Below, in pieces: positions 41,941 to 48,540 of a stretch of DNA of 58,899 nucleotides (position 1 is its first letter; each line of letters starts with the position of its first letter). The stretch spans positions 1 through 58,899 of the forward strand of contig NZ_SLVM01000020.1 of NCBI RefSeq assembly GCF_004339675.1, in the 5' to 3' direction. The stretch is from Rhodovulum steppense. Lineage in GTDB: Bacteria > Pseudomonadota > Alphaproteobacteria > Rhodobacterales > Rhodobacteraceae. Below the pieces are notes generated by a model. It searched no databases. It was not told the origin of the DNA and worked only from the letters and a program-made list of their open reading frames with translations. The translations under genes and the position numbers were made by a program.

Positions 41941-41954
41941 TTGATCCAGATCAA
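41941..41954 (+). promoter_or_regulatory. perfect FNR/FnrL-type box
   Basis: TTGATCCAGATCAA is a perfect TTGAT-N4-ATCAA palindrome, the consensus for FNR/FnrL/Anr. It lies just after the VWA gene and ~285 bp before the first YeeE/YedE gene, with the candidate sRNA hairpins in between. A transcript starting ~40 bp downstream would include those hairpins. Oxygen control is inferred. Confidence 0.6.
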
Positions 41955-42073
41955 GGCCGCAGCGCAGCATAACCTGCATCCAGCATGCGTCGTTTGCGGC
42001 GATGGGCGCAAGTTCCCGGCGCGTATCGCAAAAAACCGCAGACGGTCCCTGTGTTTTCCCGACGCAGGTTCCC

Positions 42074-42150
42074 GGGCGCCAGAGGGCCCTCCCTCCCTCG
42101 GTGCCGACTTACAGAAACGCCGTGGGTCCTCCCTCCCACGGCGTTTTTCT
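42074..42150 (+). ncRNA. candidate anti-Shine-Dalgarno sRNA: two hairpins with C-rich loops and terminator
   Basis: Hairpin 1 (42075-42105) pairs GGCGCC-GAGGG with CCCTCGGTGCC (one bulge, one G-U) around the 8-nt loop CCCTCCCT. Hairpin 2 (42117-42144) has a perfect 10-bp stem ACGCCGTGGG/CCCACGGCGT around the 8-nt loop TCCTCCCT, followed by TTTTTC. Both loops present CCUCCC, which can pair with Shine-Dalgarno sequences. This is the architecture described for cuckoo/CcsR-type RNAs of Rhodobacter (from memory). The 5' end is unknown; it may reach back to the FNR-box promoter at 41941. Confidence 0.5.
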
Positions 42151-42201
42151 TTGGCGCGGCATCATAGATCTGGATCGGTCCGGTTCACCGTGCCAGAGTT
42201 G

Positions 42202-42219
42202 CATTCGAAATAACGAATG
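42202..42219 (+). promoter_or_regulatory. CATTCG-N6-CGAATG palindrome before the YeeE/YedE genes
   Basis: A perfect 6-bp inverted repeat around AAATAA, 20 bp upstream of the first YeeE/YedE ATG. It contains ATTC-N8-GAAT, the type of site I recall for the sulfide-responsive ArsR-family repressors SqrR/BigR, which control genes of this family. No such repressor gene is in the window. Confidence 0.45.
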
Positions 42220-43406: not shown

Positions 43407-43438
43407 GGGCGCTGCGGGGAGATCCCGCAGCGCCCTTT
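43407..43438 (+). terminator. terminator after the YeeE/YedE pair
   Basis: GGGCGCTGCGGG and CCCGCAGCGCCC form a perfect 12-bp stem around GAGAT and are followed by TTTCATTTC. It separates the sulfur-transport pair from the xdhC-like gene. Confidence 0.85.
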
Positions 43439-43511
43439 CATTTCTGCGCCGATTCCCTCTGGCGAAGCTTCCCCGCCGCGCCCATTATCCCCCGAGGGAG
43501 GAAGGGCGCGC

Positions 43512-45496: not shown

Positions 45497-45622
45497 GGCC
45501 CGGATTCGCCTGGCTCCGCCTGCCCTATTCGACGCGAAGGCTAGACCAGAGCATGCGCAAATCAACGGTTCTCAAACCCTGTTCCCCATGCTTTACTCGG
45601 CCCGGATAAAGGGAGGATATCG

Positions 45623-46126: not shown

Positions 46127-46173
46127 CCGTCCGGCAAGGGCGCACAGCAGACGGATTATCCAGGGAGGATATC

Positions 46174-48540
46174 ATGCCGAAAGATCACGGCATCGGCGCC
46201 AGCAGCAAGCGGCGCGAGGATGTGCGGTTCCTGACGGGACGGGGCCGCTATACCGACGACATCAACCTGCAAGGGCAGGCCCATGCCTGTTTCGTGCGCA
46301 GCCAGGTGGCGCATGGTCGGCTGAACGGGGTGAACACCGACGCCGCCGCCGGGATGCCCGGTGTCATCCGCGTCTTCACCGCGGCCGATTTCGAGGGGGT
46401 GGGCGGGCTGCCCTGCGGCTGGCAGGTGACCGACCGGCACGGCGCCCCGATGCAGGAACCGGGCCACCCGGTTCTGGCCACGGGCAAGGTGCGCCATGTG
46501 GGCGATCCGATCGCGCTGGTCGTGGCCGAGACCTATGACCAGGCCCGCGACGCGGCCGAGGCGGTCGTGGTCGATATCGAGGAACTCGAACCGGTGCTCG
46601 ACATGAAGGCGGCGCTGGCGGATGGCGCGCCCAAGGTGCATGACGACCTGACCTCGAACCTCTGCTATGACTGGGGCTTCGTCGAGGAGAACCGCGAGGC
46701 GGTGAACAAGGCGTTCGAGACCGCCCATCACGTCACCACGCTCGATCTGGTCAACCAGCGGCTGGTGCCGAACGCGATGGAGCCGCGGGTGGCCATCGGC
46801 GACTACAATTTCGCCACCGACGACTCGACGCTCTACACCACCAGCCAGAACCCACATGTGATCCGGCTGTTGATGGGGGCCTTCGTGCTGGGCATCCCCG
46901 AGCACAAGCTGCGCGTCGTTGCGCCCGATGTGGGCGGCGGGTTCGGGTCCAAGATCTTCCACTATGCCGAGGAGGCCGCCGTCACCTTCGCCGCGAAGCA
47001 GTTGCGCCGTCCGGTGAAATGGACCTGCACCCGGTCGGAAAGCTTCGTCACCGATGCGCAGGGCCGCGACCACGTTACGAAGATCGAACTGGCGCTGGAT
47101 GCCGAGGGCCATTTCCAGGCCATCCGCACCGAGACCTACGCCAATATGGGGGCGTATCTGTCGACCTTTGCGCCGTCGATTCCGACCTGGCTGCATGGCA
47201 CGCTGATGGCGGGCAACTACAAGACGCCGCTGATCTATGTCAACGTCAAGGCGGTGTTCACCAACACTGTGCCGGTGGATGCCTATCGCGGCGCCGGGCG
47301 GCCCGAGGCGACCTTCCAGCTTGAGCGGGTGATCGACAAGGCCGCGCGCGAGATCGGGATGGACCCGGTCGAGTTGCGGCGCAAGAACTTCATCACCGAG
47401 TTCCCCTATGCCACCCCGGTCGCGGTGGAATACGACACCGGCGATTACAACGCGACGCTCGACAAGCTTCTGGAGATCGCGGATGTCGCGGGCTTCGAGG
47501 CGCGGCTGGCGGAGTCGAAGGCCCGCGGCAAGCTGCGCGGCCTTGGCATCAACTGCTATATCGAGGCTTGCGGGATCGCGCCCAGCCATCTGGTCGGCCA
47601 GCTTGGCGCCCGCGCGGGTCTTTACGAAAGCGCCACGGTGCGGGTGAACGCAACCGGCGGCCTGGTGGTGATGACCGGCAGCCATTCCCACGGGCAGGGG
47701 CACGAAACGTCCTTCGCCCAGGTGGTGGCCGACATGATCGGCATCCCCGAGAACATGATCGAGATCGTGCATGGCGACACGGCCAACACGCCGATGGGCA
47801 TGGGCACCTATGGTTCGCGCTCTCTGGCCGTGGGCGGGTCCGCGATGGTCAAGGCGACGAACAAGATCATCGCCAAGGCCCGCAAGATCGCGGCCCACCT
47901 GATGGAAGCCAGTCCCGAGGATATCGAACTCAAGGACGGCAGGTTCACCGTTGCGGGCACCGACAAGTCGGTGGCCTGGGGGGATGTGACGCTGGCGGCC
48001 TATGTGCCGCACAACTATCCCCTGGACGAGATCGAGCCGGGGCTGGAGGAAACCGCGTTCTACGATCCGAACAACTTCACCTACCCGGCAGGCGCCTATG
48101 CCTGCGAGGTTGAGGTCGACCCCGAAACCGGCAAGGTGACGGTCGAACGCTTTGCCGCGGCGGACGATTTCGGCAATATCGTCAACCCGATGATCGTCGA
48201 TGGCCAGGTCCATGGCGGCATCGCGCAGGGGATCGGGCAGGCGCTGCTGGAAACCACGACCTATGACGAATACGGCCAGCTTCTGTCGGGATCCTACATG
48301 GATTACGCCATGCCGCGGGCCTCGGACGTGCCGTTCTATGCGGTCGACCATTCCTGCCAGACGCCCTGCACCCACAACCCGCTGGGGGTCAAGGGCTGCG
48401 GCGAGGCCGGTGCCATCGGCAGCCCGCCCGCGGTGGTCAACGCGGTCGTGGATGCGCTGCAACGGGCAGGCATGACCCATATCACCCATATCGACATGCC
48501 GCTGACGCCCTCGCGCGTCTGGGCGGCCATGCAGGGCTGA
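46174..48540 (+). CDS. coxL: carbon-monoxide dehydrogenase-type large subunit, form II
   Basis: A 788-aa molybdenum subunit. The active-site loop reads [14 protein letters not shown] near residue 370. AYRGAGR is the form II motif; true form I CODH has AYXCSFR with a Cu-binding Cys, so the Cu-binding Cys is absent here. Also visible are [31 protein letters not shown] and the catalytic Glu in [17 protein letters not shown]. Form II enzymes are related hydroxylases whose physiological CO oxidation is disputed. GGGAGG precedes the ATG. Confidence 0.95.

Follow-up and report, generated by a model that had tools for sequence, protein, structure and literature searches.

A putative FNR-linked small RNA with four anti-Shine-Dalgarno-like hairpin loops in Rhodovulum and other Rhodobacteraceae

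The intergenic region between coxE and yeeE in the analyzed window (58,899 nt, positions 1–58,899 of contig NZ_SLVM01000020.1 of Rhodovulum steppense) probably encodes an FNR-induced anti-Shine-Dalgarno small RNA (sRNA) that would block mRNAs with GGGAGG sites at low oxygen. On this best reading, the RNA belongs to the cuckoo/ar14 kind as a new variant that is linked to oxygen. The predicted transcript is a four-hairpin unit on the + strand at about 41987–42147 (~160 nt, with the 5′ end inferred from promoter spacing), and it is kept in all 16 Rhodovulum genomes. The pair of hairpins described in the original prediction (42074–42150) is its 3′ half. That span is too short, because two further conserved hairpins (loops UUCCC and UUUCCC) precede it and the full RNA has about twice its length.

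Hairpins, covariation and strand

Hairpin H0 (41989–42046) is composed of an outer and an inner helix with a UUCCC loop at 42013–42017, and H1 (42048–42068) has a loop of the UUUCCC type (UUCCC at 42056). H2 (42075–42105; loop CCCTCCCT) and H3 (42114–42147; loop TCCTCCCT) correspond to the two hairpins with 8-nt pyrimidine loops noted earlier, and both are present in the sequence and in the fold. H3 is terminator-like and closes with five T, which agrees with the T-run noted at its end; a strict terminator scan listed none at the locus, H3 included. From 5′ to 3′ the loop series reads UUCCC, UUUCCC, CCUCCCU and CCUCCCU, one per hairpin, and the loop motifs at 42013, 42056, 42088 and 42128 have predicted unpaired probabilities of 0.92–1.00. 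The fold energy of 42060–42160 (101 nt) was −49.4 kcal/mol versus −38.4 (SD 3.4) kcal/mol for shuffled sequences (z −3.2), and 1 of 200 shuffles reached an equal value. CCTCCCTCCC was found at 5 sites in the genome and its reversed control at 9, indicating no enrichment of the motif by itself. Two of the five sites are within the RNA locus, 40 nt apart. Among the other three, two appear to be coding by eye and the third coincides with the ribosome site of a gene of the GFA family.

Comparison of the copies established the structure. Alignment A1 contained 14 full Rhodovulum copies with five helices in four hairpins; the copy at L020 was omitted because of an extra hairpin, and that of genome G004, found after the alignment, is absent. 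The fraction of paired cells was 88.0%, compared with 82.3% in shuffled alignments and at most 51.1% with the partners slid, the latter excess being partly built in since the structure was drawn from A1 itself. Compensatory changes in the stems, on which the original prediction had been made to depend beforehand, were found at 18 pairs as double changes, and 0 of 500 shuffles had as many. Four of the five covariation measures were reached by 0 of 500 shuffles and the fifth, which counts additional pair types, by 14 of 500. In helices 1 and 2 of H0, 82.2% and 90.1% of cells are paired, with double changes at 5/11 and 6/8 pairs, respectively, and the corresponding values for H1 (helix 3) are 96.9% and 3/7. 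In H2, 72.2% of cells are paired, and several A1 rows are out of register. Every cell of H3 is paired and 11 of its 13 pairs are invariant, so that covariation is silent for this hairpin. The weight of the covariation therefore rests on H0 and H1.

The strand was assigned from mismatch types. G–U cells outnumber A–C cells (62 vs 6 outside H2; 68 vs 14 including H2), which argues that the RNA under selection is on the + strand. A functional RNA on the minus strand, with GGA-bearing loops as for CsrA-type proteins, is extremely improbable given this asymmetry and the positions of the T-run and the −10-like element, which suit the + strand, even though the reverse complement folds too and the covariance model of the RNA (R1) weakly matches the last hairpin on the minus strand.

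Loop conservation in relatives, also anticipated, was seen across the Rhodovulum copies. Invariant columns are more frequent in the loop than in the stem for H0 (inner loop 5/11 vs stem 1/16) and H2 (6/8 vs 6/22). The H1 loop (4/9) is not better kept than its stem (7/14), and H3 is unchanging throughout (loop 7/8, stem 24/26). Conserved loops that are predicted to be open and are complementary to ribosome sites, together with the stem compensation, support the anti-Shine-Dalgarno function proposed originally. A search of this assembly for the exact 16S-tail pattern was negative, and the anti-Shine-Dalgarno sequence was accordingly taken from general knowledge.

Putative promoter and gene neighbourhood in Rhodovulum

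A DNA search of the genus gave matches in 15 of the 16 Rhodovulum genomes (own included), and R1 detected a diverged copy in the sixteenth, G004 (E 1.7e-14). R1 found a single copy in the R. steppense genome, at this locus. A pattern scan of a genome collection returned 10 records, which were nine Rhodovulum species and one Rhodobacteraceae MAG.

The RNA had been placed downstream of an FNR box, and a predicted box of this type (TTGATCCAGATCAA) is indeed located at promoter distance, at 41941–41954 on the + strand, 5 nt past the coxE stop codon. The −10-like element TGCATC (41975–41980, + strand; TRCAT in relatives) follows 20 nt past the box. All 15 aligned Rhodovulum copies have the box upstream of the RNA (TTGATNNNNRTCAA; the second half reads GTCAA in one), and the distance to TRCAT is exactly 20 nt in each across a spacer of variable sequence. 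The sixteenth copy also has the box, with the 20-nt spacing by hand count. The box centre is ~40 nt ahead of the likely RNA start, and the box of class II FNR promoters is centred near that distance from the start. The box is thus most likely part of the RNA's own promoter, as judged from the aligned sequences. A consensus sigma-70 scan detected no promoter at the locus. Between the RNA end and yeeE there is also a degenerate FNR-like site (42160–42176), in whose place L012 has a full TTGATCTAGATCAA.

In the window and most Rhodovulum genomes, the RNA directly follows coxE. It may accordingly be no more than the terminal portion of the mRNA of the coxE operon with its terminator, possibly cut into fragments and lacking a promoter of its own, as the failure to find a consensus promoter would suggest; CcsR and SorX likewise derive from 3′ parts of mRNAs, according to the available portions of the literature. 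We consider this unlikely. The FNR-type box at constant spacing speaks against it, and four conserved loops exceed the needs of a terminator. Moreover, the RNA was matched in full at L017 (G008), where coxE, yeeE and DUF6691 were matched only as broken pieces, and it is retained where coxE is not adjacent (L012) or where the neighbours are different (other genera). The start of yeeE is 92 nt past the RNA end on the same strand, an arrangement that would suit a leader or attenuator controlling the downstream yeeE pair. This role is very unlikely because no adjacent yeeE match was found at L013, L014, L015, L035, L041, L043 or L047, and the gene order in G004 is a coxE-like gene, the RNA with its box, and then xdhC. 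A free-standing sRNA gene therefore remains the preferred reading.

The placement of the RNA inside a CODH cluster holds for the position between coxE and yeeE here, and not in every genus is the RNA tied to a CODH-like cluster. Whether this "CODH" cluster oxidizes CO is itself not certain, since the CoxL protein (46174–48540) carries AYRGAGR, which we take to be the mark of form II CoxL. Two further elements were observed nearby. An inverted repeat between the RNA and yeeE (42203–42218; ATTCGAAATAACGAAT), also present in several Rhodovulum relatives, resembles the operators of sulfide-sensing ArsR-type repressors. A strong hairpin, GC-rich and followed by a T-rich tail (43407–43435), after DUF6691 and before xdhC, is weakly matched by R1 on the minus strand and looks like a plain terminator.

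Occurrence in the family and candidate targets

The covariance-model search in relatives, which had been proposed as a check, matched 27 genera other than Rhodovulum in addition to the sixteenth Rhodovulum copy. The family search covered 394 genomes, nearly all from different genera, with E values up to 0.001. Matches were found in 29 genomes, two of them Rhodovulum, leaving 28 loci in 27 genera. An FNR-type box is present between −250 and +40 relative to the match at 15 of the 28 loci (15/27 genera), compared with 0.015 expected per locus. Because the box is absent from the model, its presence at matches outside Rhodovulum is an independent sign. The matches in the other 12 genera have no such box. 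By eye, five of the boxless matches (L055–L058 and L060) look like plain terminators and three (L036, L037 and L044) look like ar14/CcsR RNAs, L044 being the only one of the three above the ar14 cut-off.

The RNA is near coxE, on its downstream side, in 7 of the 27 genera (L035/L061, which belong to the same genome, L041, L043, L047, L052, L053 and L054) and beside ispG-, infC-, ccoG- or transporter-like genes, named by eye, in others. As coxE is present in 281 of the 394 family genomes, the RNA is not a constant member of the coxE cluster. The RNA downstream of coxE seems enlarged at L061/L069 (G365), with seven UUCCC or CUCCCUCCC copies in ~170 nt. A second subfamily may be represented by L038, L040, L042 and L046. 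The RNAs at these loci are similar, with loops of the GATCTCCCTGA type and boxes of the TTGAC type, and three of the four are close to infC-like genes. A class-wide search of 367 genomes matched five, own included. The other four matches are tRNAs with a terminator or plain terminators by eye, and no credible match was found outside the family in this set. Both searches used strict filters by which weak matches are lost.

Within the window, GGGAGG occurs at 4 of 50 crude gene starts, and three of these are xdhC, coxS and coxL. A Fisher value of 0.007 for cluster gene starts is loose because it was computed post hoc on a hand-counted set of "7 cluster genes" that includes yeeE and a moeA-like gene outside the 50 calls. 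The candidate sites on the + strand are GAGGGAGG at 43494–43501 before xdhC (start 43512) and AGGGAGG at 45610–45616 before coxS (start 45623). They were compared across 41 sequences with crude start codons and phylogenetically uneven groups, after dropping rows that aligned from beyond the first 6 residues. GGGAGG precedes xdhC in 12/16 rows with the RNA vs 1/14 without a model match (p 0.0002), and in 2/4 vs 1/14 when Rhodovulum is removed (p 0.11). The coxS ribosome-site motif is present in 10/10 rows with the RNA vs 4/8 without. From these sequence comparisons, xdhC and coxS are weak leads as targets. The ribosome site of coxL (AGGGAGGA, 46162–46169, + strand; start 46174) was rejected as evidence of targeting since GGGAGG is identical with or without the RNA (10/10 and 8/8).

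The GFA-family gene (L005, G000:C29) is a further, weak candidate target. It has GAGGGAGGGAGG at its ribosome site, before the start, which is a perfect complement of the H2 loop and of the bases on its 3′ side; in the folded RNA, the latter bases are part of the stem. Among the own-genome matches, no other perfect CCTCCCTCCC complement falls at a ribosome site. The gene occurs in 9 of the 16 Rhodovulum genomes, with the full 12-mer in 2/9 and GAGGGAG in 7/9. Duplex energies favour xdhC and the GFA-family gene; they include flanking pairs and were for this reason not used as evidence.

Proposed mechanism and relation to known RNAs

We infer transcription, FNR binding, pairing, targets and physiological role as follows. 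The locus would be a free-standing gene for a trans-acting sRNA of ~160 nt. At low oxygen, FNR (FnrL) would bind the box at 41941–41954 and activate a promoter with a weak −10 element. The transcript would form four hairpins, each pyrimidine loop mimicking the anti-Shine-Dalgarno tail of 16S rRNA, and the loops could base-pair with ribosome sites rich in purines, GGGAGG being the best partner. Such pairing would keep 30S subunits off and lower the translation of genes that are unwanted without oxygen. More tentatively, a family of FNR-induced multi-hairpin RNAs in Rhodobacteraceae may serve as an oxygen-gated translation brake on the strongest (GGGAGG) sites, those of neighbouring molybdenum-hydroxylase genes included. 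Its strength might evolve through the number of loop-bearing hairpins, with four here and more in L020 and L061/L069.

At gathering scores, Rfam gave no match to the RNA, and the only hit in the window was a tRNA. A permissive scan (301 bases) ranked ar14 (RF02344) highest among the meaningful matches, with 34.1 bits (E 6e-5; cut-off 58.8), followed by ar7 (27.9 bits; cut-off 60) and CcsR1 (RF02791; 22.4 bits, E 0.002; cut-off 65.3). The ar14 model also matches the RNA below its cut-off in 5 of 7 relatives tested. The likeness to cuckoo/CcsR-type RNAs suggested originally is thus real, with scores that stay below the family cut-offs. These matches would suit a plain ar14 or CcsR1 (cuckoo-type) member that lost its DUF1127 neighbour, but this is quite unlikely, as the scores are far under the cut-offs whereas the DUF1127-linked ar14 at L044 in the same bacterial family, which has no FNR-type box, reaches 70.1. 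In addition, the RNA has a predicted FNR-type promoter and its loops are CCUCCCUCCC and UUCCC instead of CCUCCUCCC, the motif expected in each loop of an ar14 RNA. The lack of a DUF1127 gene next to the RNA, already pointed out for this locus, was borne out: the own-genome matches are on contigs C12, C6 and C47 and not on the present contig, C20. A DUF1127 motif scan was positive at 0 of 15 non-Rhodovulum loci with the box, 2 of 12 without it (L035 left out, as it is from the same genome as L061), and 1 of 16 Rhodovulum loci, the last in an antisense frame and judged spurious. Downstream of one own-genome DUF1127 gene, a single CCUCCC occurs at a distance of 164 nt and CCUCCUCCC is absent.

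Several described RNAs share parts of this design, as far as the accessible sections of the cited papers describe them. ar14/NfeR1 has several hairpins that each expose an anti-Shine-Dalgarno motif on stems of differing sequence (PMC10746234). This row of loops resembles the RNA here, for which ar14 is the best Rfam match, whereas the NfeR1 motif is CCUCCUCCC and its link is to NtrBC. CcsR1–4 and the cuckoo RNAs, from Rhodobacter relatives, also have C-rich hairpin loops; the transcript that gives rise to CcsR carries DUF1127 (ccaF1) and is read from an RpoHI/HII promoter (PMC10253847), in contrast to the FNR-type box and the lack of DUF1127 here. SisA–D/alphaR8 of Caulobacter act in trans on many targets through the anti-Shine-Dalgarno 10-mer UUUCCUCCCU, in one single-stranded stretch after a weak hairpin rather than a row of hairpin loops, and no FNR link was found in the accessible text (PMC12559287). 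Related literature seen in part also includes PMC8307010, PMC4344238, PMC3320616, PMC5502269, PMC5036791, PMC11354728, PMC5107571, PMC6686037 and PMC7717549. Among the best-ranked open-access literature matches, the accessible sections mention no FNR-controlled RNA of such kind.

PcrZ of Rhodobacter sphaeroides is described as a low-oxygen sRNA dependent on PrrA and FnrL (PMC8139620, PMC6238624). It was rejected as the known counterpart: the 136-nt stretch at its published start (2,565,820, a coordinate that may shift slightly between record versions) contains neither CUCC nor UUCCC, and R1 gave nothing below E 0.88 in that genome, which was identified through PufX. A TTGATGCGGATCAA site (L098 in G066, position 2566006) separates PcrZ from the operon for cytochrome b561, and the CrpK and PrrA peaks that were assigned to RSP_0820 in the published data extend over the start of PcrZ as well. 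Two other candidates were set aside on the accessible descriptions. RSs2461, one of two R. sphaeroides sRNAs with an FnrL ChIP peak, is SorX, from the 3′ UTR of RSP_0847, and DenR/sRNA-29 of Paracoccus is an antisense RNA that is highest in air.

To our knowledge, multi-hairpin C-rich loops are not a feature of FnrS of E. coli. According to the accessible text, FnrS is activated by FNR and represses target RNAs without oxygen (PMC4263372), possibly the same role as that of the RNA here; the two are likened by description and not by sequence. If the proposed function is true, these bacteria would have an FnrS-like RNA arm of FNR regulation, and the RNA would offer a clean case for how specificity is achieved with near-generic ribosome-site loops. 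The known alphaproteobacterial anti-Shine-Dalgarno RNAs are linked, as far as the accessible accounts go, to stress in the case of CcsR, to nitrogen status for NfeR1 and to growth condition for SisA–D, and the RNA described here, with a promoter spacing unvarying in 16 genomes, appears to be wired to oxygen via FNR.
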